In this document: positions 11,123 through 53,098 of the stretch, piece by piece | Numbering within the stretch: position 1 is the first letter of the stretch | How the letters are laid out: each line of letters begins with the position of its first letter | Source of the DNA: Hirudinaria manillensis | Lineage: Eukaryota > Annelida > Clitellata > Hirudinida > Hirudinidae | Direction of reading: 5' to 3' | Assembly (NCBI GenBank): GCA_034509925.1 | Contig: CM067529.1 | Span: forward strand, 1,366,001-1,430,000 | Length of the DNA: 64,000 nt | The notes under the pieces: generated by a model | The model's database searches: none | What the model was told of the DNA's origin: nothing | The model's input: only the letters and a program-made list of their open reading frames with translations | Translations under genes and position numbers: made by a program

Positions 11123-14100
11123 CTAGAACAAATAGTCGGCACTTGCAAAGCTGCTGTCGAGTCCATTAGTGTGGCAAAACTGCTCGTACAAACCAACTCC
11201 ACCTCCGCCACTGCTGCAGTGCTGATCGTTTCCAAAGTCGTGACTGCAGTCGGAAATGTAGTCAGACTTGGAGTCTGCCTTTTCGCAAACGAAGAGAGGT
11301 CCGTAAGACATCAAGACCTCTGCAGCGTCCAGTCGATTCAGGTCTTTCAGCTTTGAAATCAGAATTCCGATCAGCGATCTCGACTTGTCTTTGTCTTCGC
11401 TTGTCCAAACGCTCAGGACTTTGTCCGTCTTGCTGCTCAAAGAGGATCCGTCTTCTTTGGAGTCCAGCGACGGCATCTGTTCCGACAGGCCCAGCAGGAT
11501 GGCCAGCATGCACCAATCGCAGCCCGTAACGTCGACGGGGTCCAGCAAAGAGGCCAGTTTCCGTCTGACGTTGATCGACAAGGAAGACGCACCGAGGTTC
11601 GGACTCGGCACGAGTCTGTTGTAGACCACCTCGCTTCCGAGAGCCAAAAGATCGAGCAGAGACTCGTAACATTCTTCTCCGTTGCACTCCGTAAATTTTA
11701 CGACGAAATCTCCTTCCGAATCCATGAAAGACTCGATGATTTCTTTCTGCGAATAAGATTTGATTTGTTTCCTGTGGTCCGACAAATGCAACGAGCTGAG
11801 TATCTCCTGCTTGTAGTCGAGCGACGGATAGCACGACTGGATGGTGCTCTTTATGACTTCTCTGATGCTCTCGGCAAATTCGAACAATTCCGTCGCCATG
11901 TCGGACGGACCCCTGTATTTCAGTTCAATGAATCCCCGACCGCATGAGCATTTCCCATCGTCGCAAGAGTCGTATCTGCCTGCAGAAGTGTCGTACGTGA
12001 CCAAGACTTCCAGGAGTCCTCTGCAATACTTGGAGCCCCAATGCCATTGATACAAGTCTACCTCGGAGTTCGACTTGTCCGGCAGATAGTGCCTCCTCAG
12101 CATCACCTGGATTCGTGGAAAGAGATGAGCCAGGTGGTTGTGCCGCTGCCCTCCGACGGGCGGAAGGAAAGGCGAAGCCGGCGGAGCGATCAGGGTCGGC
12201 GACTCCGGGGTTTGGTCGGCGTTCTGCTTCGCCGATAGCGATATGTTCTCCATGCTTGCGGACAGGAATGAAAATTTTCTGGACGAGCTCCTACTGAACG
12301 AACCGTTCGGAGTGAAGCACAAGTTCGACCTCGTTCCGGAAGTATCCGAAGGCCTGCTCTGGCAGCGGACGCAAACCTGGACGAACCTGGACCCCGCGTA
12401 AATCGTGTTGACAGCCAGTCTGACGTCGTTGCGGTCCCACAAACCCACGAGGGTTTCGACGAAGTTCAGGCAGGGGACTTCGTACTCGGTCGCGAAGCAA
12501 TCCCGGTCACGTCGTGCAGACGAAAAGAGCCGGTTGCCGACGGAAGCGACCTCGTCGCGAGCGTCGAAGGCCCCGCCGTAAGTCCCGGTGGTCGTCTCCT
12601 CGTCGTCGCCCTCTTCGTCGCCGAGGTCGCATCTCGTGCAGAACGCCAAAGCCTGCAGCAGCTGGAGCAATTCGACGGCTTCGCAATCGGAAAACAGGAG
12701 CTGGAAGTCGTCCGATCCGAAGCATCCCGTCGGTCTGCACTTGGAAGTGACTTCGTAGGACAACAACCTACCGAGGACGTTGCTGCACAGCCACTTGACG
12801 TCCAAAATGACTAAATCCTCTTCTCCAGAAATTGTCGTTTCCATAAAAATCACCTGTAATTACCAGTTGAAAAGAAAAAAATACAGGCTTAAACACAAAA
12901 ATTTGTCATGCTCTTATTTATTTCAGAATTTGGCAAATTGTCAAATATTGCTGAAAGACTTAAAATATATTTTTTTACAATTTCCAGAGAATTTATTTTC
13001 CAAAGAAGTGATTGGACATTCACCTCTCCCATGAGTTGAAGTTTATAGATGAGTTCCTTCATGTGCTCCTCACTGGCAAGAAGATTGACAGTAGATCTCA
13101 GGTATTCTATGAAGTTAGACCAGGTGACGACGGGGTAAGAACTCAAGACCCTTCTCCAACCTGGCAGTGCAATCACAGTGGATTCCAAGAAGCCGTTGGA
13201 TCGTGGTAAATCCTGGATATCCCGTTCATTCAAGACATTTTATGCCAGAGAGAAAATGATTTTTAAATTTATTTTTTATTTTTTTATCATATTCACCTTG
13301 CAGATGTCAGCCTTCATGTCAGCGATGAGGGATCTGAAAGACTTCATTTGAACCGACGTCGGATAATCCGGATCGATGGCAAAGACGGTGGAGCAGATTT
13401 CCAGGTCCATAGAGTAGATGTCTTTGAGGATACTTAAACATTCCAGGAGTTTCTTCCAAGCGTCCGTCTCTTCCTCGAATGAGCCTGAAGCCTTTCCGTA
13501 GTTGAGCAGAATTCCTACCAACACCACCTTGGCTCTCTTTGGCAATGCACCTCCAAAACCTAAGTGAATAAACAAGAAAATACTGAACCTCCCGAGCGAA
13601 TTTCAACCTCTGGTTTAAAGCGCAAAGCAAAACGAACTGATGGGTTCAGACGGAGGAATGCAGGATTTGATGAAGTTCAACCAAGAATTGATCTCGTTCA
13701 GCTGAACGTCAATCGATTGAAGTGGATTGAAGCACAGCACATGAATGCAGTTCACGTCTCCAATGAAAATATCATAAAACTGGTAATAGGCCTCGTACCC
13801 CGAAAACTCCCAGATGCTAAAGTCTCCGGCGCCTCCTTCGTCGGGAATAGAAAAAAACAGGTTGCAATTAATGAAAGTTGATTTATGCCAAATTTTCAAC
13901 AAATAACCGATTAATGACAAGAAAATGAAATTTAAAAACCTGGAATCGTGGCCGTCTGCACTTCTATTCCCTGCGTGTAGTGCTCATGGCAAGGAGCAAT
14001 ACTGGTTGAACGCTTCTTTTGATTTGCATCTAAGTCAAATTGATTAGCTGTTAACTGTTGATAGTTAATAATAGATATGGTTAAGCATTATTTATAGTTA

Positions 14101-34182: not shown

Positions 34183-35330
34183 TTACTCTCAGCTCATCAA
34201 AGACTGCCAAGTATACGAGCCTGCTATGCCTGACCTTCCAAAATGTGGCACTGATCATTGCCATGAAGTACTCAAGAAGCAGGCAGGGTGATAAGTACAT
34301 GATGACAACAGCTGTGGTCATATCAGAGATAATCAAGCTAGTCAGTTGCCTCCTCATAATTCTCATTCAGGAGGGCTCTTATAAGGAATGGTTGAAACAT
34401 CTGCATGTCAACATCATCAAACAACCGATAGATTGTTTGAAAATATCCATACCAGGCCTTATCTACATGGTCCAGAACAACCTACTTTACGTTGCCGTGG
34501 CCAATCTCGAAGCAACGACTTTCCAGGTACGAATCCGTTCGTATTTCATCCTCGTAACTTTATTTAAGTAATTTTATTTAAAAAAAAGAAAAAGATAAAG
34601 AAAAACAAAGATAAATTGGATGAATTTAATGAACTACTTCAACATTTTATAACAGGTCATGTATCAACTCAAGATCCTGACGACAGCTCTCTTCACCGTA
34701 GTCATGCTGGGCAGAAAGCTTTCAAGGACGCAGTGGTTTTCTCTGTTGGTACTTTTCATAGGAGTGTCTGCCATCATCCACCTCCAGGCCTCTCAAAGCA
34801 AAGAAGTCGGCGAGACTCCGACCGCCGAAGACAAAGGACTAAAACCTTTTCTCGGAGTGGCGGCGGTGCTGATTTCCTGCGTCTTGTCCGGCTTCGCGGG
34901 CGTCTACTTCGAGAAACTCCTCAAGAACACGCCCCAGTCGCTCTACATCCGCAACGTCCAGCTGGGGGTGTTCGGTGCTGTCACCGGCATGGCCACGGCC
35001 CTGACCTTCGACAGGGACCAAATCTTAGACAAAGGGTTTTTCTTCGGTTACGACGGTCTGGTGATGTGCGTTATCTTGCTGCAGTCCATGGGCGGGATTT
35101 TGGTTGCCGTGGTAGTCAAGTATGCAGACAACATCCTCAAGGGCTTCGCTACCTCGGCGGCCATCATCCTCTCGTGCATCGTTTCCACGTTCTTTTTCGA
35201 TTTCCAACCGTCCCTCACCTTCCTGCTCGCGACCGGATTGGTGGTAGGCTCCGTTTACATGTACAATTCCGGCGGCATTGGTACCTCAGAACCTCACTTG
35301 CCTTTCAAAAGGAGCCAGGAAGTGGTATGA
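34183..35330 (+). CDS. SLC35A2: UDP-galactose/UDP-GlcNAc transporter, SLC35A2-like (5' exon not found)
   Basis: Two exons are visible: 34183-34526 (enters in phase 1 from an upstream exon) and 34656-35330. The product is a multi-pass Golgi nucleotide-sugar transporter. Diagnostic stretches: YMMTTAVVISEIIKLVSC, LIYMVQNNLLYVAVANL, QLKILTTALFTVVML, SGFAGVYFEKLLKN, GGILVAVVVKYADNILKGFA and the GFFFGYDG loop, the last favouring SLC35A2 over A3. About 340 residues are recovered, near the family length; the missing N-terminus would be only one helix or less. These carriers exchange cytosolic UDP-sugars for UMP. The last exon is much richer in GC than the surrounding sequence. No start ATG exists in frame before the 34181-34182 acceptor, so the 5' end is partial. 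Confidence 0.88.
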
Positions 35331-39118: not shown

Positions 39119-40252
39119 ATGGTCCTCAAAGGTTTTTGGATTATTCTTCATCTATTTATAAAATTTTGATTTTAATTTGAGAAATAATCGACATTTCAGT
39201 ACTGAAAGCGGCTTTCTTGACAGTCCTGTTGCTTCTTCCAACATTTAGCTCGTTTTTCTTTCCTTCAACAAGCAACACAGGTTTTTTTTTTAATTTTAAG
39301 CGAGAATTTTACACTCTAAATAGTCATAATTTTTTTTACAAGTTTATGAATGAAATGTTTGTGTTTATCCGCAATACTTCATTAATTTCTTGTAAAAAAA
39401 AAAAGGTTATAAAAAAATTTGTATCCGCTCATTCACAATATTCAACAGCAGTGACATCGGAATGCGGAGAAGCAAATTGGATCAACTTTGGAGATTATTG
39501 TTACTCTATTGTCAACAACTTTGGAAACTATCTATCCGCCATGTTTGTTTGCAGAAACCTTGGAGCTCACATCGTTTCGATACAATCGGGAGCTGAAAAC
39601 ACTTTTGTCCAGTCTCTGTACGTTTTTAAACCGAGAGAATTTATTCGTAACATCGAAATGTTAAAAATGTTTTCATATTTCAGAACAAGTGGGTTTCTCA
39701 GTCGCTATTACATCGGAGTTATGGAAAAACCATGGCAAAGTTTTTCTGGATATTGGACTGATGGTAGTAAGTTGAAGTACGAAAATTGGAATCCATTTTC
39801 ATGGAAAATAGGTTGTGGTGTTATATCGAATACGGGTAGCTGGTCTAGAGTTCTATGTACTGATTACTTCTCTAAGCACATTTGCAAAAGACCTCTTAAA
39901 ACCACGGGTAATTTTAATTAATTGGTTTATTTATTTATTTATTTTAATCTGTCCTTTAAACAATACTTCAACTTCAACATTTTTTATTTTAAAAGTGAAA
40001 AGTTCAGACTGCGCTAGAGTGGTGTTTCTGCAGAGATATTTAGAAAGCAATAACTTGAAGGTGATTGAAACTTCAAGATGCACGGTTTTCCACTGTCTTA
40101 GGGAATGCATGAACGAGTTTGCCTGCATTGGATTTAATTTGGTGAATTACGACTCGACTTGTCTGTGCCAACTGAAAGGAGCGGAAGTGTGGATGTTTAA
40201 TCAGATCATCCCATCCGAAAATTCGAGTTATTGGGAAAGAATTGTTGTTTGA
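39119..40252 (+). CDS. Secreted C-type lectin + PAN/apple-like protein 1, 247 aa
   Basis: Five exons: 39119-39131, 39200-39280, 39449-39617, 39684-39907 and 39996-40252; all phases agree. A 13-nt first exon joins to complete a signal peptide (MVLKVLKAAFLTVLLLLPTF). The C-type lectin domain (about 35-160) has ECGEANWINFGDYCYS, LGAHIVSIQSGAENTFV, YYIGVMEK, and a closing CTDYFSKHICKRP. The Ca2+/sugar-binding loop has no EPN or QPD motif and no WND; it reads ENWNPFSWKIGCG. A PAN/apple-like Cys module follows (about 165-247): SRCTVFHCLRECMNEFACIG and TCLCQLKGAEVW. It is the most divergent of the four paralogs in this cluster. Likely extracellular; classical calcium-dependent sugar binding is doubtful here. 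Confidence 0.82.
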
Positions 40253-41362
40253 ATCAAGCGAACGTTATTTCAAGTGAAAATCCGAAAGCAAACACTTTAA
40301 CCGCCATCAATTCTTGAATTTTCGATTCGCTTCTTATTTGTAAATTATTTTGGAAACTACTGGATTCTGAAAATGATAGAGTTGCCTGCGATCGAGTTTG
40401 CCAATCGATATAACTAAAATTTATTCTGACAAATAAATATTAGATATTTTAATAAATGGGAGATATTTCGAATACAAAATCAAAATCTTTAGTAAGAAAT
40501 CCACAACTTTTCCAGATAAAACAAAGTGACCTCAGCTAATTTCGAATTCTAAAGCAGGAACTAACCGTTTTTAATTCAATATTTCTTAAAATATTTCTTA
40601 AGTCTGGTAATATCTGGTAGTCTGGGCATTGATTATCGTTTATTAAGAAATTAAATTGCTTTTTTAAATTAGAAATTAAGTTGTTACCAGTTCATTGTTA
40701 TCAATATTACAGTCACAGTATCGATTATTACAGTTACATCTAACATAGAACTTGAGATCCATCTCGGCCTTAACAATAACCAATCACGCGAAAAGTTGAA
40801 TTAATTCTTTGCAGATAAGAAAGAGCGTTTCGTATCTGTCGATGTTTCCTTATCTTGGAGTCTAATGGTGCTTTCGGGCAAGATTTTTTTTATTGCGGCA
40901 GGTCTTAAATTGCAGAATATTGAATCAATTCAATTAAAGTATTTTTAATTAAAAGAGTTTATTATTTGTAAATTTATTTGTAAAGACATCAACCTCATCT
41001 TATCTCGATATGAAGTGGCCTGTGGCATTGTTCGGCAGACAATTCTTCGATCAAACCAGAGATCGCTAAGTGTTCCTGTAATGTGGCCGATGACAATTCT
41101 AATGCAAACCTATTCTTTCTGTCCATTTGCATTTACCTTCTAGGAAGAAGGGAAACCGAAATATCTAATGTAACGTCTTTTGACTGGAAAAAAAAAGCTA
41201 AAGTGTGGATATAAAGTTTGTTGTCAAAGATCCTCAAAAAGAGATATCAGCCTTTTTTTTCTTCTTAGAAACAAATATTTCGATTAAATCTTGATAAATT
41301 GATCAGCGAATCTAACGACATAAATTGCGATTGGAAGGCACATTGAGAAGTTGCTCGAGGAA
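40253..41362. other. Intergenic between lectin genes 1 and 2
   Basis: AT-rich, no coding frame seen. Presumably holds the promoter of lectin gene 2. Confidence 0.5.
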
Positions 41363-42762
41363 ATGGTAAAGTTTAATATTTCACTCATCCAGATTGGCCT
41401 GCTGGTTTTCAATTGCAATTCTTCGATCTTGGCAAATGGTAAATATTATTGTTATATTATTGTTATTATTATTATTATATTATGTATTATATTATTATTA
41501 TTGTTATTATTGATGTTATTATTACTATTATTATTGGTATTGTTATCATTATTATTATTATTATATGTAAATATTATTGTTATTTTCAGTCATTCAACTA
41601 ATTAATTATTTGTTTTAGTCTAATAATTCTAGTTTGAATACATTTAATTATGCGGTGTACGAGAAGGAATGTCCACAGGTAATAGCGGAACTAGTGTAGG
41701 GGAAAGCTCCAGAATACCCAGGAAGCGAGCTACATGCTTTTACAAAAATTTTGTATAATAAATGTTTTTAAACATTTATATTCATTTTATATTTAAATTA
41801 TTGCATCTAAAATAGGTTTTATTTACATTATTTAACTATTATTAAAAGCTCCGGTATCGTCCGCACTTCGGACTAGAAATGGTATCGATAGGGATTCTTC
41901 GATGACAACCCATCGTATTAAATTTCTGTTTGTTTCATGTACACGTGCCTCTAGAAGCTAGCTGTCCTGTGGATTGGGTTCTTTACTTGTCAAGTTGTTA
42001 CAAGTTTGCGAATGTGTTCAGTACTTACTACGATGCCTTGCAATGGTGTAGAAACGAACAATCAGAACTTGCAAGCATCACTTCTAGAGAAGAAAACGAT
42101 TTCATCACTTCTAAGTATTAAATTATTAATAAAAAGATGTTGTTAAATATATTGATGATATTATAAAAGCCTCATTTTGTCTCCAGTTTGGTAGGTGATA
42201 CTTGGATAGGTTTGTACAAAAGAACGTGCGTTATCAGAGACGACGTGCAATGGTTGGATGGCTCTGAATCTGATTTTGTCAATTTCGCGAATACGGAACC
42301 GAATGATAAAGCATGTTGCATAAGGATAACTAGAGAAGGATGGAAAGATCAAAGTTGTTTCAAACAATATCCGTTTGCATGCAAAAGACCATTCGAAACA
42401 CAAAGTTTATTGAATAAATATTTCAATATTTTCTTTCGCAACTAAAATAAAATTACTTCGAAATGCTATTATTTCTAGGGATTCCATACAAACAAATGAA
42501 GATAATGAAGTCCAATGGTTACCTGGAAAGTCCAATTATTGCAAATATTGGAATAGAAAAGTGCACTTCAGCCCTGCAGTGCCTGATAAAATGTTTGGAT
42601 GTTTATGCCTGCAACGGATTCAACATGAAAAGGATTCCATTTCAGGGTGCTTGCATTTGCGAATTCAAGGGATCGGAGAGTTGGATGTCTTTCAAGATCG
42701 TTGAAGAGGAAGGGTCTGAGTTTTGGATGGACACGACGTTTCCAAAATTCTTCAGTTTTTGA
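41363..42762 (+). CDS. Secreted C-type lectin + PAN/apple-like protein 2, 245 aa
   Basis: Four exons: 41363-41438, 41955-42114, 42187-42404 and 42479-42762, phases 1, 2, 1. Signal peptide in exon 1 (FNISLIQIGLLVFNCNSSIL). The lectin domain starts ASCPVDWVLYLSSCYKF and has LASITSREENDF, WIGLYKRTCV, an EPN motif (NTEPND, the mannose-type selectivity triplet), WKDQ in the place of WND, and the closing YPFACKRP. An unusual double Cys (ACC) follows the EPN loop. The C-terminal PAN/apple-like module (about 150-245) has KCTSALQCLIKCLDVYACNG, CICEFKGSESW and a conserved EEEGSEFWMD tail. Start: the ATG at 41363 gives the best signal peptide. Intron 1 is filled with ATT-type microsatellite. Confidence 0.87.
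41445..41575. repeat. Imperfect (ATT)n microsatellite
   Basis: About 130 bp of ATT/GTTATT units in intron 1 of lectin gene 2; it produces a spurious poly-Leu/Ile open frame. Confidence 0.9.
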
Positions 42763-43182
42763 GGCATCACGTCTACTCAAGCTTAAACATTTCATTACGA
42801 ATTTTCATGATTTTCATGACGTATAGCTAAGTGAACTGAGGATTCATTTATTGTTGAAGGTTTTTGCACCGACATTATAGAAAACTTGGAACACGTTTCT
42901 CCATAAGTTGCACGTTTAGAGTTTTAATCTCATAATTTCATCCAATCTTAAAATATTTTCGAGAATAAAACTTCTGATGATCTGAACAAACATGTCATTC
43001 AAGCTCAATTTCTCCTCAAAGCCTTGTTTTAGATTTCGGTTCCATTTATTTTGAGTTATTTGAGCTCGAATCTCTATTTTTCCACGTCGATGCCAAAATA
43101 TTTGCCAATGAAATCTGAGATTTATTTCAATGCCATTTTATTCAAGTCAAGAGTTTGTCAACAGCCAGAAAGGAAGATCATT

Positions 43183-46091
43183 TTACAAGCTTTTGCATTT
43201 TTCAACTCTTTCTTCAGGGAGACTGTGGACGATGATGCAGCTTTTGGCCACGGTGTCGAAGTACAGATCGGAAGGACAATCCTCGACAGAAACAACTCCA
43301 GCATCGCAGACGACGTAAGAATGACAGTCCCTTGGATGTTCGTATCTTCCGTCAGGCATTTCGTAGCAGTTCAGCTTCTCAGGCGTTGAAGTTGTTGGCT
43401 TTCTGAAATAAATTTGAAATTTAAAGTTAGAAAACTAATATCATGAGTTTAGGCAGGAATGAGTTCAAGGTTACTCTAGTCCACACTCCTTCTTTCGCTC
43501 CACGGGTAGCCTGTAGGCAAAGGTGCAAGATTTCGTCACATCGTCGAAGAACAGCTTCAGAGGACATTCATTGACAGAGGCAACTCCATGTGAACAGGTG
43601 ACAAAAGAATGACAGTCACTCGGATGCTTGTAGTTTCCATCAGGTTTCTCGTGGCAGTCAAATTCGGGAGCGGAAGGTGTTGGAGTTCTGAAATTGAATT
43701 TAAAATATTATTGTAAAGTCAAAATCTAGAAACAAATATTACGAGAAAAATGTTCAAGGTTACTCTAGTCCACATTCTTTCTGACGCTCTTCGGGCAACT
43801 TATAGCCTTCGGTGCAAGATTTCGTCACATCGTCGAAGTATAGCTTGGAAGGACATTCCTTGAAGGAGGCAGCTCCATCCGAGCAGGTGACAAAGGAATG
43901 ACAGTCAGTCGGATTCTTGTAGTCTCCATCAGGTTTCTTGTGGCAGTCGAATTTAGGATGGGCAGTTGTTGATCGTCTGAAATAAATATGAAAAATTATT
44001 TTAAAGTCAACTTTTTAAATTTATTTGACATGAAAAGTGTTTAAGTTACCCTAGTCCACACTCCTTTTGTCGCTCTTCAGGAAGACTATCGCCGTAGGTG
44101 CAAGATTTCGTCACCTCATCGAAGTACAGGTTGGAAGGACATCCCGTGACAGAGGCAATTCCATTGGAACAGGTGACAAAAGAATGACAGTCAGTTGGAT
44201 GCTTGTAGTCACCATCAGGCTTCTTGTGACAGTCAAACTCAGAACTTGGTGACCTTAGTAAAAAAAGATATTAATCATCAAATTGTTTTATTCGTGCAAA
44301 TCAAGAGACCATTGTTGAATCAAAAAAATTACTCTATTTCACACTCCTTCTGGCGCTCTTCTGGCAGACTACTTCCATATGTGCAAGATTTCGTCACTTC
44401 ATCAAAGTACAGCTTGGAAGGACATTCCCTGACAGAGGAAATTCCATTGGAACAGGTGACAAAGGAATGACAGTCAGTTGGATGCTTGTAGTCACCATCA
44501 GGCTTCTCGTGGCAGTCGAATTCGGGAGCGGAAGTTGTTGGAATTCTGAAATTAAATTTAAAATATTATTTTAAAGACAAAATCTAGAAACAAATATTAC
44601 GAGAAAAATGTTCAAGGTTACTCTAGTCCACATTCTTTCTGACGCTCTTCGGGCAACTTATAGCCTTCGGTGCAAGATTTCGTCACATCGTCGAAGTATA
44701 GCCTGGAAGGACATTTCTTGAAGGAGGCAGCCCCATCTGAGCAGGTGACAAAAGAATGACAGTCAGTCGGATGCTTGTAGTCTCCATCAGGTTTCCTGTA
44801 GCAGTCGTATGAAGGACTCGGTGTTGTCTCACTTGATGGTCTTAAGAGAAAAAAGCATCAATAATTAAATAAAATGTTTTGTTTACATAATAAAATCATT
44901 ATCGAAACAGAAAAATTCGAGGTTACTCTAGTCCACATTCTTTCTGACGCTCTTCGGGCAACTTATAGCCTTCGGTGCAAGATTTCGTCACATCGTCGAA
45001 GTATAGCCTGGAAGGACATTTCTTGAAGGAGGCAGCCCCATCTGAGCAGGTGACAAAAGAATGACAGTCAGTCGGATGCTTGTAGTCTCCATCAGGTTTC
45101 CTGTAGCAGTCGTATGAAGGACTCGGTGTTGTCTCACTTGATGGTCTTAAGAGAAAAAAGCATCAATAATTAAATAAAATGTTTTGTTTACATTATAAAA
45201 TCATTATCGAAACAGAAAAATTCGAGGTTACTCTAGTCCACATTCCTTCTGTCTCTCTACTGGTAGGCTACTGCCGTAGGTGCAAGATTTCGTGACTTTA
45301 TCGAAGTACAGGTTGGAAGGACATTCCGTGACGGTGGCAACTCCACCGGAACAGGTGACAAAAGAATGACAGTCAGTTGGATGCTCGTAGTCACCATCGG
45401 GCTTGTCGTGGCAGTCGAATTCAGGACTTGATGGCCTTAAGGAAAAGATATTAATGATTAATATTAAACATTCTTATTATGAAGCCGTTGTTGAGGAATG
45501 TAAAAAAAAATCATAGTTACTCCAGTCCACACTCCTTCTTTCTGTCTATAGGCAGCCCACTTTCCAAAGCACAGGATTTTGATACGTCGTCGAAGAATAG
45601 TTCAGAAGGGCATTCATCGGCAGAAGCAACTCCATTGGAACAGATGACAAAGGAACGACAATCAGTTGGGTGTCTGTGCTTCCCGTCATTATTTGTTTGA
45701 GGTCCCTCTCTGCATTAAAAACATGTCGTTTAATCTAATGACAGCACTTGTTACATCTCGATAAGACTTAATAGGATATCTGGAAAAAGACAAAATAACA
45801 TATCAGAACTGTGTTTACAGCAACCTGCATTCTTTTCTCCTATTTTCTGGCAGATCGTACTCCTTGGCACAAGTCCTTTCCTCATTGTCAAAGTACAAAT
45901 TGGAGGGACATTTGATGGCTGAAGCAACTTCACTGGTGCAGGTCACAAACGAATGACAATCCGTTGGATGCTTGTAATCTCCATCGGGTTTTCCACGACA
46001 GGAGGAGTCAAGAGGAGATGTCGAGTGATTAGAATGGTCATGAACGGAATGATCATGACTGGATGTTTCAGACTCCGAATCCTTGGTTGAA
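43183..46091 (-). repeat. Array of ten CBM14 exons, all phase 2-2
   Basis: Exons approximately at 45825-46091, 45521-45709, 45232-45436, 44929-45147, 44624-44841, 44336-44547, 44051-44255, 43767-43979, 43477-43690 and 43183-43402. Each encodes one six-cysteine peritrophin-A type module. The 45521-45709 copy lacks the first cysteine ([12 protein letters not shown] in place of DCHxKPDGDY). Larger blocks including introns are also copied: the intron and start of the exon near 43690-43840 recur near 44545-44700. Confidence 0.85.
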
Positions 46092-48506
46092 CTGTCGGTG
46101 TGAAACATTTAAATGTTGTTAATTTCAATCTGCATTTAGCTGAGTCGCATTCTGTAAAATTTAAACTCACATTTTACTCTCTTCTTCCCCAAGTGCCTCT
46201 TTCAGAGCTGTCAAGAGGGGATATCTGCCGGACCCGCACACTGTTCCGTTGAAATCGTCCAGTGAAGTGTCCCAGAAGAACCATCCAGCGAATCCAGATG
46301 TTTTCAGGTATTCCACCTGCAATTAAAAATATGATTGCACGCTATTCCCAATTGAACTTAGAAGACATCCCATTAATTAGAAATAATAGTTTACAAATTA
46401 AACCTTCAACTTTAAGCTTTTGGCGTCGTCGTATCCAACCCAGAGCTTGCCATTGGACAAGAAAGGAACCTGTTGTTCTTCTGACCATTGCACTTTCGAA
46501 GATGGATCTTGGACAAGTTTGCAAATCTGCAAAAATAAAAAAAATTACTTTCATCAATTACATTTATAAATAAATAAAAATTGCGATGAGTTTAGTAAAG
46601 AACTGACGAACTTAAGAATATTTTGAAAATAACGACCTCGTAGTAGGAAAGGAATCCGGCTTCTTTGGTGAACTCGCCGGCTTCGCACGGACCAGTTACT
46701 GGAGCACCGATTCCGTTTTCTTCGGGATTTTTCAGCGTGAAACACCTTCCATAACCCGCCATTCCGATCAGAACTTTGGCAGGGTTGAGTCCTTTCGAAA
46801 CCCAGTACTTGGCACTCCAATCCTGAAAATAGGTTCAAGTTTAGTAAAGATAAAAACAGGAACGTCCTAGTCTAGTACAGTTGTGATACCAGATTGAGAT
46901 CATAGTCTTTGGAATACAGAGGTGCATTGTGACCAGTGACTGATTCCCAGGCTCCATGAAAGTCGTATGTCATCAAATTTATCAGATCGAACAGACTGGA
47001 AGCAAAAAATAGAATTAAAAGTCCAATCAAGACATGGAAATGATTTAAATTATAAACTTTGACCATTAATCAGTAAATTAATTACAATAAATAAATAATA
47101 ATAATAATAATGATAATAAATGTCTCGGTTGACTTTACCCGTTGAGTTTGTCGACTTCATAAGCGGCATCGATGACTTCCTTTACGCCGGACACGGTGGC
47201 AGTGAGCATCAGTTTCTTTTCCATCTCCGGTACCTTCTCGTTTTCAAAAGCCTCGCGAAGTTCCTGTGAGAATAAAAAGAGGAAATATATAAAAAAAATA
47301 TTCGATAAAGCATATCACTCGTAGAAATTAATTTCTACGATCATTCTAATTTATAAACGCAGCCTTTCCGGCCTTTCGGCTTAACCTTGACCAAAAGAGT
47401 GAATCGTTGTTTGTCCTCTGGAGGACTTTCCTTGTTTCCAGGGAATTCAAAGATCAGATCCAATCCGTCGAAGCTTCTGTCTCTCAGGTACTTGATTGAA
47501 GTCTTGATGAACTGGGTCCTGTTCTCCTTCGTTGACAGCATGCGAGTCATTTCGACAGTTTCGGCATTCGGTCCTCCGACTGAAAGAAGTGTCTTCAATT
47601 CCGGTTTCTTTTCCTTCAGATCATTGAGTCGTTTATACCTGAAATTGAAATAATTGAAATGGTTATCAATTTTCTCTTACAAAAAAAAAAAACACATCCT
47701 ACAATCGACGAGCTGAATAATGAAAAACAATCAGCACTCCTCGCATAATTGTCCGCCCATCAGGTGCAAATTGGTTCTATAAATTTAAATTAAACAAAAT
47801 GCAACTCTAACATTCCCTCGTGACACGGAAAAGTCTCGTCGCTCCAATGAAGTGGTTTCAGCTGGTTGTCGGACAGTTTGGCAAAGGCGAAGAACAGGTG
47901 GGTGCACAGATTGACGTCGATATCCTCGGGAAAGTGTTGGAAAGAATCCCTGAACTGAGCCCAATTGGTGAAGTAGCATCCTCTCAGATGTTCTGAAAAA
48001 TGTCAAAGCAAAGTTAAAATATTACAAATAATATAATAATTATAAATCATTGATCTCCTACACTCAATGCACATAAACATAAAATAAAACTACCATATCA
48101 AACCCACGACTTTCACAAAATACTGTCAACCCATTTACAATCTCATAGAGAACTTTATCTGTAAACCTCACTCAGTCAACGTAACAATAGACATTACGAC
48201 CATCTATTACTCAAAGCTTCATAGCTCTCCTCAATAGTTCCGTAATGGAACCAGAATATTAAACCCTAATGGCCTAACTCTCTCGACCTAAATCAGCCTA
48301 TCACCCTACAATAAAACACACCCTATCATGTACAATACCACTACCTCATACATACACCCTATCATGTACAATACCACTACCTCGTACAAAAACCACACCC
48401 TACCACCACCACTACAATGTCGATACGCTACCACTACGATATCTTAACTACCTGAGGAGGATAGCCCAGCTACCAAGGCAACAAAAAACCAAGTCAGCAT
48501 TCCCAT
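43183..48506 (-). CDS. Secreted GH18 chitinase-like protein with ten CBM14 chitin-binding modules, about 1100 aa
   Basis: Exons for the N-terminal part: 48452-48506 (signal peptide [19 protein letters not shown]), 47812-47992, 47386-47638, 47139-47263, 46890-46995, 46637-46822, 46404-46526 and 46171-46316; then ten CBM14 exons from 46091 to 43183. All checked phases agree. GH18 landmarks: [40 protein letters not shown] and [17 protein letters not shown]. The catalytic DxxDxDxE motif reads DGLDLIFE: the glutamate is kept, but the third aspartate is replaced by Ile, so chitinase activity is doubtful. After the catalytic domain comes a His/Ser-rich linker ([16 protein letters not shown]). Each CBM14 exon is phase 2-2 and has [21 protein letters not shown]. 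Likely extracellular chitin-binding lectin or lining protein. It sits between lectin genes 2 and 3. Confidence 0.88.
44625..45236. repeat. Near-perfect tandem duplication, unit about 305 bp
   Basis: The CBM14 exon at 44624-44841 and its following intron are repeated almost base for base at 44929-45147 and onward (for example GCCTGGAAGGACATTTCTTG at 44701 and again at 45006). Only single differences are seen (e.g. ACATAATAAAAT versus ACATTATAAAAT). Confidence 0.92.
48318..48420. repeat. Short direct duplication in chitinase-like intron 1
   Basis: The segment CACCCTATCATGTACAATAC plus CACTACCTC occurs twice, 36 bp apart, inside a CA-rich, low-complexity stretch. Confidence 0.75.
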
Positions 48507-48984
48507 AACTGAGGAAGAGCCAACATGCAAACCACAATTCCGAAAGCCCTTATATAGTTTTCCGAGGGTCTCTATCACGAGTGAGGCCAACGAAATAATC
48601 GATAAATTATAACAGAAAAATATGAATATTTCTGAAGTATTTATAAGATTTTTGAAATTTAAAAGCTGGATATTGGGAGTGAAAGCTATGATCGACCTTT
48701 TCATCCTGCCTGGAATATTATTATTGCATGAATTTATGATTTATGGGCAAATTACAGTGAAATATTTTAATTAATTATATTGGAAAGTCCCTGGCGTGGC
48801 AAGTTATGGCTGACTCATATCGTCAGTGATGAAATTGTAATTGTTGATGGTTCTAATTACTTTTATGGATCGTACCAAGTCGATATTTCATTGAGTGCAT
48901 TTTAATTATTTCTTTGCTCAACAATAGAATTATTGAAATATTATGAAATAATATAATATAATTACGATGGAGCTACTTTACTCC

Positions 48985-48996
48985 ATAATAATAATG

Positions 48997-49037
<41 letters not shown>

Positions 49038-49053
49038 CATAATAATAATAATT
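48985..49053. repeat. (AAT)n microsatellite
   Basis: About 20 AAT/AATG units between the chitinase-like gene and lectin gene 3, which are divergently transcribed (starts 48506 and 49919). No gene was seen in 48507-49918. Confidence 0.92.
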
Positions 49054-49918
49054 TGACATCGCATTTCCAAACTTCCGTTTGGCAACTTTTGCTGAAAAAT
49101 TTTAAATAAAATTTTGGCTTTCCTTCTATCTATTCTTTCCTTCTATCGATTTAAGGTCTCTGAGTGCATCACTAACTTCGAGTTAGGCAGATATTTTTTT
49201 GAGAATAAAAATTGATTTTTCGATCGTTTTCTTATTTTATTGCACCTTAATTGCAATATTGCTCATAAATAAATTTTTAATATTATTCATTATTATATTA
49301 ATTTAGTATTGTTTGCTTTTGTTTTTGTTTTTTTAGATTTTCAGAATATAGACTCCCCAAAATCTTGGCAGGTTTTGTTACATTAAACACCATAACTTCT
49401 CCAGTTTTACAGAGAAAATATGATAACTCAGATAACTCAGTCACTTACTTAAATGATAGTTCATAGTTTAATAATTTCAAACCACTTAACATTAATCTCA
49501 AAAATCATTTTCTTGCAGCATCTACGAAGGTGTTTCTCTGGAAAGCTTTTAAATTTTTTGTCGGAGCATTCACACCTATTCCCTATTCCATGAAATCAAA
49601 ATGGATGAATCTGAAAGCTGAAATTTGACAGCGTAGTTCAATGAAATGTGACCATAAAACACAAGATGCAAGATGACAAAGGGCTGACAAAGGGTCCTAA
49701 GTGTTTGAATCTTTTTGTTGAAATGCATTCCATATATTTTTTTTTCTTCGTTTGGAAAGATATTCGAAAGAAATTTGAGAACAATTGGATCCTCCTAATG
49801 GAAACCAGTCAATAAATTGGCTTGACTTCTTACAATCTCACAGATTCAAGGAAGTATTTTGGTTGAGATTGTATTTAACGTAAATAAATTTTATTTTATT
49901 TGGAGATTTCAACTTTTG

Positions 49919-50124
49919 ATGGATTTGAATAATTTATTCATGTTTATTGGTCTGTTTATGTTTGTCTCCATTCCATTGGACGGTAGATTTATTATTGGTT
50001 ATCTGATAATTTATCTAATGCGTGCTTAAAACTATTAGACAGCACTTTGATTTCACGTTAAACGCAAGATGGCGCTAGATTTATTTATGAGCTTTTCAAA
50101 GTTTTCAAAATTCCAGATAACAAA

Positions 50125-50178
<54 letters not shown>

Positions 50179-51134
50179 ATAATTAGTTTATTCAAATTAA
50201 TTCCTAAAACATTTTTCTCTGTCGCTTTAAAGATAAATAAATTTAAAAATGAAAAATAATTGCAGGCAGTTGTCCTTCAGGCTGGGTGACCTACATATCA
50301 AATTGTTACAAATTTGTGGATGTTCAGCTCAATGCATACAATGCTTCACAATTGTGCCGAAACGAACAATCGGAACTTGCAAGCATCACTTCTAGAGAGG
50401 AAGATGATTTTATCAATCAAAAGTATCAGATTATTATTACATTAATATTGTTAATTAATTAATTAAACGAGATAAATTCTGATGATATTATTAAAAGAAC
50501 ATCATTTTTGTCTCCAGCTTGGTTACAATGTCTGAAGCATGGATAGGTTTGTATAAAAGAACGTGCGTAGTCAACGATGATATGCATTGGTTGGACGGTA
50601 CCCAAGCCACTTACTCCAATTTTTTCCACACGGAGCCAAATGAAGACGCGTGTTGCGTAAGAACCACTAAGGACGGATGGAAGGATAAGACTTGTCTAGC
50701 AGAGTATCCATACGTTTGCAAGAGAAAATTGGAAACAAAAAGTAAGGGGTATTTTTTGAGATTATTGGATTAAATGATTAAAGTTGTATTTAAAATAAAA
50801 ATATCGTTCTCAATGATGGATATTTCTTCCAGAGAATCCATCCAAACAAGTAACGAAGCCTAAATCTGGGAGCTACCTAGAAAGTCCAAACATAGCAACC
50901 GCTGAAATAAGACAATGTACACCTCTGAGATGTATTTTACTCTGCTTGGATGTTTATTCCTGCCACGGATTCAACATGAGACGGATTCCATTCCAGGATG
51001 CTTGCATTTGCGAATTCAAAGGATCGGAGAGCTGGATGTCTTTTCCAGTCGTTGAAGAGGAGGGGTCTGAGTTTTGGATGGACACTCCGACATTTTTTGA
51101 TTTTCATTTCCTACAAAATTCTACTTTGATTTGA
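49919..51134 (+). CDS. Secreted C-type lectin + PAN/apple-like protein 3, 248 aa
   Basis: Four exons: 49919-49982, 50266-50422, 50518-50741 and 50833-51134, phases 1, 2, 1 as in its paralogs. Signal peptide MDLNNLFMFIGLFMFVSIPL. The lectin domain opens GSCPSGWVTYISNCYKF; it has LASITSREEDDF, WIGLYKRTCV, EPN (HTEPNED), the double Cys (ACC), WKDK and the closing YPYVCKRK. The PAN/apple-like module has QCTPLRCILLCLDVYSCHG, CICEFKGSESW and EEEGSEFWMD. It is closest to lectin 2, with long identical blocks in both domains, which implies recent duplication. The C-terminus is slightly longer (to NSTLI). A (TTA)n tract lies in intron 1. Confidence 0.88.
50123..50177. repeat. (ATT)n microsatellite
   Basis: About 17 ATT units in intron 1 of lectin gene 3, the same intron position as the ATT tract of lectin gene 2. 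Confidence 0.93.
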
Positions 51135-51994
51135 TCGAAGATGACGACATTCTGTTAGATTGCCATAAATACTTTATTTTAATAAATAAAAATGGAAGGT
51201 TTGGCTGAGTGTTTTTAGATTTTGTCTGTCCTTTATTATATGTAATTGTTTAAATAAATAAATAAATTAATTAATTAATTTTCGAATAAAATCGTTGAAA
51301 TCCTCATTTTGAATCAAACATCTTGTATAAATTCCTTCGAATTGGTCATAAAGAGCTGTGTTAATTAGAATTAACTTGTTCAGTTAATAAAACTATTCTA
51401 AGGATTACTTAATTAAAATTAATTAAAACTCGCTACAACATCTTCTGTGATGCCACACGAATATCAAAGGTTCAAAACCAAACATTTTGACAGTTTATTG
51501 CTGGGATGTTGCAACAGCAGTGCTTTTTCACATTTTCCGTTGCATTTTTAAAATTTTAAAATCATTATAAATTTGATCGTCCACAATTTTGTGGCTGAAA
51601 ATGGAGCTTCGGTGAAGTGCAAAGAGGTCATGCACTTGACTAAGGGGTTCAGCACTTATGCACTTGGTGACAGGTAATTTTGTGGCGAGGTTGTTCACAT
51701 CGTTGGATTTCCAAATCCTCTTTTCAATATCTTCATTAACGACGTCTCTACAATTGCACGAGATGAATGCAAATTGAGTTCATTGTAAGACGTCGATTAC
51801 ATTCCTACAAAAAACAATGACACGATGCATTAAATCTTCCCAAAGATGGAAAATCTAAGGAAATAGCCATTTGCATTTTCCACGTTTTCTTTTCCAAGAA
51901 AAATTAAAAGTTAACTTTTGTACATACATTTCTTATTTAAGGCAAGAGGCTTAGATGTTTAGTAAAGAATTTGAGTTAACATCAAGAACGAAGC

Positions 51995-53098
51995 ATGCTA
52001 TCACTTCTTTGGATATTGCTGCTTTGCAAGACCTCAAGTGGTAATTTTTTCATACTTTTTTTTTCCAATTTGTGCTTTATAGTCTGCTTGAAATTAACAA
52101 GTCAAAAGCTTTGTGCATCTAAATGTTTATCCTGAAGGCGGACCTCAACGTCCTCCAATCTCGAACCCAAGCATCCAAGGAGTTGGTTCAAATAGCTGTC
52201 CATTAGGCTGGAGTTCTTTCAAGCAAAGTTGTTATTATTACGTGGACGTTCATAAAAATTATTATGATGCATCGCAATGGTGTCGAAGCGAACGATCAGA
52301 GCTGGTGAGCATCGGTTCTAAGGAGGAGAACGATTTTGTCAGTAACAGGTGCCAAAGTCATTGTTACTTTTTCCAAAAAATATAAAAAATAAAATAATAA
52401 ATCAAAGCAAACAAAGGAGGAACAAAGTAAAGTAATTTTAAATTTACAATTGCTCTATTTATGAAAGTTTGCTTTTCTGTGGCGCTCAGATTGGTTACCG
52501 ACACATGGATCGGACTCTACAAAAGAACATGCGTTATAATCGATTCCATTTTCTGGATTGATGGTGACAATTCAACCTACAATAACTTTGCACTACCTGA
52601 TCCTAACGATGAAACATGTTGTGTTAGGATAATTGATGGGTTTTGGAGGGATAAAGATTGTAAAATTAATTTGCCTTTTATGTGCAAAAAGCCTAAAGAG
52701 TCAAAAAGTGAGTTTGATTTTTCACATGCTACCTGTTCAGTTAAATGAATTTTATTACAGTAATAAATCTTACAATGTGTTCATTTGAATCTAATGTTTA
52801 ATGATTTCGTTATAAAGCATTTGCAGATGACGTGGTAAAGAAAATGAGCAGAATAAAAGCAAACGGCTATTTGAACAGTCACAGCTTAGACACGATGGAA
52901 ATCAAACGATGTACGCCTATCCAATGTCTGGTTCATTGCCAGGGATTGTTTGCTTGCAATGGATTCAACATGAGGACAACACAGAATGGCTGCAAGTGTG
53001 AATTCAAGGCTTCAGAGAGCTGGTCTTTTGAAATACTTGATGAGGAAGGATCAGAACTGTGGATCGACAGGTCATTCCCAAAGTTCTTTCCCATTTAA
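51995..53098 (+). CDS. Secreted C-type lectin + PAN/apple-like protein 4, 248 aa
   Basis: Four exons: 51995-52040, 52138-52348, 52490-52707 and 52827-53098, phases 1, 2, 1. Signal peptide MLSLLWILLLCKTSS. An extra Pro/Ser/Asn-rich segment (about 16-35, GGPQRPPISNPSIQG) precedes the lectin domain, which opens NSCPLGWSSFKQSCYYY. It has LVSIGSKEENDF, WIGLYKRTCV, a DPN variant of the sugar-selectivity triplet (LPDPND), the double Cys (TCC), WRDKDC and LPFMCKKP. The PAN/apple-like module has RCTPIQCLVHCQGLFACNG, CKCEFKASESW and DEEGSELWID. Likely an extracellular lectin; DPN in place of EPN could shift sugar preference (inference). The stop is 533 bp from the ZBBX-like stop, tail to tail. Confidence 0.87.

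Follow-up and report, generated by a model that had tools for sequence, protein, structure and literature searches.

A 64,000-nucleotide stretch of the genome of the leech Hirudinaria manillensis (C4:1366001-1430000, hereafter the window) contains four genes, numbered P1 to P4 in their order along the plus strand, each of which encodes a C-type lectin domain followed by a cysteine-rich C-terminal module. A search of the assembly (148.4 Mb, 23 contigs) revealed two further genes of this family, P5 and P6. Assignment of the C-terminal module to the PAN/apple type is partly supported, and we consider it fairly probable that the six genes form a leech family of soluble two-domain recognition proteins that bridge two surfaces.

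Between the start ATG at 39119 and the final stop codon at 53098, open frames joined by GT-AG introns run through all four window genes and establish the gene structure as follows.

39119-40252, plus strand: P1, GT-AG spliced model of 5 exons (39119-39131, 39200-39280, 39449-39617, 39684-39907, 39996-40252), 247 amino acids
39996-40252, plus strand: P1 C-terminal exon, predicted PAN/apple-fold module, 7 cysteines
41363-42762, plus strand: P2, GT-AG spliced model of 4 exons (41363-41438, 41955-42114, 42187-42404, 42479-42762), 245 amino acids
42479-42762, plus strand: P2 C-terminal exon, six cysteines and EEEGSEFWMD tail, from alignments
49919-51134, plus strand: P3, GT-AG spliced model of 4 exons (49919-49982, 50266-50422, 50518-50741, 50833-51134), 248 amino acids
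50833-51134, plus strand: P3 C-terminal exon, six cysteines, from alignments
51995-53098, plus strand: P4, GT-AG spliced model of 4 exons (51995-52040, 52138-52348, 52490-52707, 52818-53098), 251 amino acids
52818-53098, plus strand: P4 C-terminal exon, six cysteines, from alignments

A first-pass annotation of the window had described four same-strand paralogs combining a lectin with a C-terminal module, and the spliced models, together with the Lectin_C scores given below, bear this out. Several details required narrowing. The genes had been called a tandem array, and all four do lie on the plus strand, but a minus-strand GH18/CBM14 gene stands between P2 and P3. Intron phases of 1, 2, 1, thought to be identical throughout, were found in P2, P3 and P4, but those of P1 are 1, 1, 2, 1, with an extra phase-1 intron near the start. 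The supposedly conserved EEEGSEFWMD-like tail is exact in P2 and P3 and reads DEEGSELWID in P4, but P1 has only SENSSYWE; the six cysteines of the module are common to all, with a seventh in P1. P3, P4 and P1 share 61%, 51% and 29% identity with P2, respectively, and the low value for P1, its different tail and its lack of an EPN-type lectin motif make it the outlier of the family. An N-terminal hydrophobic stretch in P1 to P4 (best 11-residue mean hydropathy 2.47-2.81) suggests that the proteins are secreted.

The lectin domain seen at first pass in all four window genes is firmly established. Lectin_C (PF00059) scored 47, 55.4, 63.7, 56.4, 67.2 and 52.6 bits in P1 to P6, all above the cut-off of 22.6, and the E-values for P1 to P4 (4.7e-12 to 3e-17) exclude chance. 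Extra cysteines common to P2 to P6 (YKRTC ... CC or equivalent) probably pair with each other.

P5 and P6 have the same make as the window genes and lie 2.5 Mb away on the same contig, on the minus strand (C4:3902688-3906711, locus L043), extending the four paralogs first counted to a six-gene family whose homology is clear. P5 encodes 242 amino acids with intron phases 1, 2, 1, the donor that ends its start exon having been picked among several possible; P6 encodes 288 amino acids with phases 1, 2, 2, 1 and has an additional intron inside the lectin. Genome searches with the P4, P1, P5 and P6 modules recovered these six genes alone at E-values below 0.06; further hits (C2:129758, C3:542691, C5:10555761 and C12:6928413) were weak (E 0.07-0.75). 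A search with the whole of P2 recovered the same six genes, followed by lectin exons elsewhere at E 0.25 or worse. Exon matches to PF00059 number at least 36 genome-wide (all 115 first-look candidates scored), and the six-module profile, run over sequence that includes 28 of the 33 matches outside the window, detected no seventh copy of the module. In the fetched loci, the best match to the module outside the family was a single open frame in L049, at E 0.036 with the six-module profile and 0.013 with a four-row one. For P2 and P3, the ratio of nonsynonymous to synonymous substitution rates (dN/dS), estimated by a simple counting method, was 0.21 for the lectin (dS 1.21) and 0.24 for the C-terminal part (dS 0.86), demonstrating selective constraint on both; most other pairs were saturated or nearly so.

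The C-terminal module, a single exon in each gene, is assigned to the PAN/apple type on the basis of the predicted fold of P1, a weak PAN_1 match in P1, cysteine spacing, and homology between the P1 module and the remaining five (24-33% identity), through which the predicted fold of P1 would extend to them. The AlphaFold2 model of the P1 module, whose alignment included 8 PAN exons hand-picked from 29, had a predicted local distance difference test score (pLDDT) of 92.2 and a predicted template modelling score (pTM) of 0.82, and PAN/apple chains stood at the head of both fold searches made with it. The core spacing C-x3-C-x5-C is present in 6/6 modules, and many of the 29 PAN exons examined from the same genome share it, their general core pattern being C-x3-C-x5/7-C-x10/13-C. 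The last core gap is 11 or 13 residues in five modules and 18 in P6 (measured up to the first cysteine of C-x-C), and 10-13 in 29/29 PAN exons. In apple domains an outer disulphide links the two ends; the six-module alignment has no conserved cysteines near either module end that would form such a bond, and two extra cysteines adjoin the core. A PAN profile built from 28 exons of the same genome scored the P4 module at 15.6 bits, above 400/400 shuffles, and full shuffles reached the observed score in 1, 7, 0, 0, 9 and 16 of 200 trials for P2, P3, P4, P1, P5 and P6, respectively. In a profile-profile comparison, the module matched PAN with a score of 24.0, equalled by 1 of 150 shuffles that kept the cysteine columns.

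These features suggest how the proteins might work. Glycoconjugates would be bound by the lectin domain at the N-terminus, while the PAN/apple-type module at the C-terminus would attach to a second ligand, either protein or polysaccharide. We propose that one molecule would thereby bridge two surfaces, with a microbe or host glycan on one side and matrix, mucus, vessel wall or leech tissue on the other.

Besides the hand-picked exons in the P1 alignment, a number of results weigh against this picture. The PAN/apple resemblance proposed at first pass had a faint counterpart in profile searches: PAN_1 (PF00024) matched P1 alone, at 15.9 bits and under the cut-off of 21.4, and the Pfam listing holds no PAN_1 match for the P2 to P6 modules. 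NDC10_II, an unrelated Pfam family, matched two modules at the E-value level of the one PAN_1 match, presumably by chance. Shuffles with fixed cysteines equalled the observed PAN-profile score in 14-73 of 200 trials for the five modules other than P4, and the probability attached to the profile-profile match was just 34%; judged from sequence alone, the PAN call would be weak. Structure prediction gave a PAN/apple-like module for P1 but not for P2, which was modelled from a six-row alignment without PAN exons and gave a poor model (pLDDT 52), with no PAN chain among the matches listed by Foldseek and VIA-align. We set this P2 search aside as meaningless because the model is too weak. Foldseek returned no match at E <= 0.001 for either the P1 or the P2 module model. 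Signal peptides were assigned by hydropathy alone. Finally, sugar binding appears doubtful from the motifs. WND provides calcium ligands in strand 4 of sugar-binding C-type lectins, and it is kept in none of the six proteins (WKD in P2 and P3, WRD in P4 and P5, WTD in P6, WSR in P1). The E/Q-P-D/N motif named for C-type lectins (PMC6468738; this and the other papers cited are drawn on in excerpt) is represented in the long loop by EPN in P2, P3 and P6, EPD in P5 and DPN in P4, and is missing from P1. Calcium-dependent mannose binding is not to be assumed.

Two alternatives concern the architecture itself. It is extremely improbable that lectin exons and C-terminal exons come from two different genes: in 6/6 genes a phase-1 GT donor closes the lectin part and is matched by an AG acceptor at the start of the C-terminal exon, AATAAA follows the C-terminal stop by 47-202 bases in 4/4 window genes, and the divergence of the two domains is correlated (15 pairwise identities, r 0.88, reached by 5 of 720 label permutations, the true order included). 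In its favour, retention of the last intron would lead to a stop 4-13 codons past the exon end in P1 to P4, so that lectin-only isoforms are conceivable, and at another locus, on C10, a PAN gene and a lectin gene seem to adjoin as separate genes. It is somewhat less improbable, but still very unlikely, that the C-terminal module has a WSC-like or unnamed cysteine-rich fold rather than PAN. The module has C-x-C and G-F/L, seen also in three WSC exons of the genome, in which WSC is abundant (at least 96 matches at E <= 0.001, with 150 of 333 candidates scored, often clustered); proteins with C-type lectin and WSC are named in bivalves (PMC10140915); and the single-sequence PAN scores reflect mostly cysteine spacing, as the fixed-cysteine shuffles of five modules indicate. 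The profile-profile score against WSC was, however, lower than that against PAN (17.0, probability 3%, with 11 of 150 cysteine-fixed shuffles as high), although the comparison is unequal, the WSC profile having 3 rows and the PAN profile 28. PAN/apple chains, moreover, lead both P1 fold searches, and Pfam lists no WSC (PF01822) match at E <= 10 for the six modules, weak matches being dropped by HMMER filters.

With regard to function, two settings may fit in a leech, namely host defence or surface biology, and the blood meal; since the host is a leech, feeding may be a natural suggestion beside the immune or surface-matrix role suggested at first pass. We regard it as possible, but rather unlikely, that the proteins are salivary anti-haemostatics, in which a lectoxin-like lectin and a LAPP-like PAN module would block adhesion of platelets or clotting factors in the blood meal. 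PAN-domain proteins are listed in leech salivary secretion, with LAPP as the known example (PMC7191736), and C-type lectins have been found in leech salivary libraries and a genome (PMC3631404, PMC7303139). A shared fold, however, shows no function: plasminogen, HGF and factor XI scored the same as or above LAPP in the fold search with the P1 module. No match to LAPP or saratin was found at the sequence level either, both being absent from the PDB chains at E <= 10 with the profile of the four window modules; the one match of the module profile in the PDB sequence search was a phage tail spike (E 0.59). The authors of the H. nipponia study assign the C-type lectin to immune defence as a pattern recognition receptor (PMC6195274), and the dN/dS of about 0.2 for P2 and P3 gives, on average, no sign of fast adaptive change. 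The stronger version, a leech-specific bivalent antihaemostatic family in which a lectoxin-like lectin is fused to a LAPP-fold PAN module, is more doubtful again; if true, one bivalent secreted protein would simultaneously cover a glycan of the vessel wall or of platelets and a site on collagen or on a clotting factor. Expression in salivary cells would make the family a new candidate in medicinal leech pharmacology, and expression in the gut or body wall would make it a candidate for the recognition of symbionts or microbes.

The neighbourhood of the genes was also examined. The gene between P2 and P3 (~43183-48500, minus strand) encodes a GH18 chitinase and includes a long series of CBM14 chitin-binding exons. 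Eight of its open frames fit a simple CBM14 pattern, and a Pfam scan of five pieces gave GH18 in two, CBM14 in two and no match in one. Two CBM14 exons (44618-44857 and 44923-45162, minus strand) are identical in 240/240 bases, within a unit matching in 295/305 bases, reflecting a very recent exon duplication, conversion or an assembly artefact. Upstream of P1, a Death domain (38.8 bits) is encoded in a large open frame (11123-12859, minus strand) that we take to resemble death-associated protein kinase, and a nucleotide-sugar transporter exon lies at 34653-35330 (plus strand, 261 bits).

PAN_1 is likewise abundant in the genome as a whole: with 150 of 206 candidates scored, at least 150 matches reach E <= 1, often clustered. 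The best PAN_1 exon among those scored (L009, 741-1740) lies just behind a von Willebrand A open frame (132 bits), and the locus possibly encodes a protein combining the two. On C10 (C10:6552689-6578678), five lectin matches with identical scores recur at a spacing of ~6.4 kb. In the one unit read (L052, C10:6549000-6556000), the lectin exons have two neighbours: a secreted-looking single-PAN gene (PAN_1 22.5 bits), and an open frame that has a membrane-type stretch at its end. A PAN-before-lectin fusion at this locus was rejected, as the frame of the PAN exon hits a stop, with AATAAA soon after; the two genes look like neighbours, with splicing from within the PAN exon still possible. WSC matches at C12:882761-1405942 and C11:2646118-3622585 are often split at profile position 45/46 in an intron-like manner, and several second-half matches contain stops, being either pseudogenes or frame run-on. 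Antistasin domains are abundant, the scoring of 150 of 162 candidates having given at least 63 matches at E <= 0.001. Hirudin, known from leeches, gave four matches to PF00713, three of them above the cut-off and three clustered at C4:12249308-12249728; the stretch of the top-scoring match (33.9 bits) contains one TAG.

Neither the two domains nor their combination is new for animals, and the leech genes are a modest new family. The profile of the four window modules had no sequence-level match to LAPP or saratin. To our knowledge, neither LAPP (1i8n) nor saratin carries a lectin domain. Among leech salivary C-type lectins, which are lectoxin-like, tandem copies with conserved exon and intron sizes are reported in Hirudo medicinalis, and the Macrobdella archetype has 13 cysteines, the same count as P1 (PMC3631404, PMC7303139); compared by description only, these lectins may be orthologues. 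The literature searched yielded no C-type lectin and PAN/apple domain in one annelid protein, and the excerpts of PMC3631404, PMC7303139, PMC6195274 and PMC7191736 describe no leech protein with both. The PAN module is so divergent that Pfam lists none in 5/6 proteins, and published lists of leech C-type lectins may therefore have included proteins of this kind as simple lectins.

Snake venom C-type lectins and snaclecs are, like the leech proteins, small and secreted with a C-type lectin fold, but snaclecs lack the E/Q-P-D/N motif entirely, whereas E/D-P-N/D is kept in 5/6 leech proteins; no PAN module is described for them in the excerpts of that source (PMC6468738). In bivalves, which are also lophotrochozoans, C-type lectins are joined to another carbohydrate-binding or immune-type domain, but this is WSC, among other domains, rather than PAN (PMC10140915), and WSC is the weaker match to the leech module; a search of PMC10140915 and PMC8878817 for PAN or apple domains gave no passage on either. 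The first-pass annotation could not name the architecture, but C-type lectin with CW (PAN_3) is listed as nematode class IV, with 16 proteins in C. elegans (PMC5297725). As in the leech family, C-type lectin and PAN-type modules occur there in one protein; the nematode proteins differ in phylum, in module (CW/PAN_3) and in having one or two of each domain (PMC5297725). The two pairings are likely of independent origin. The novelty of the leech family is modest because the pairing is known from nematodes, to which it adds an annelid example.
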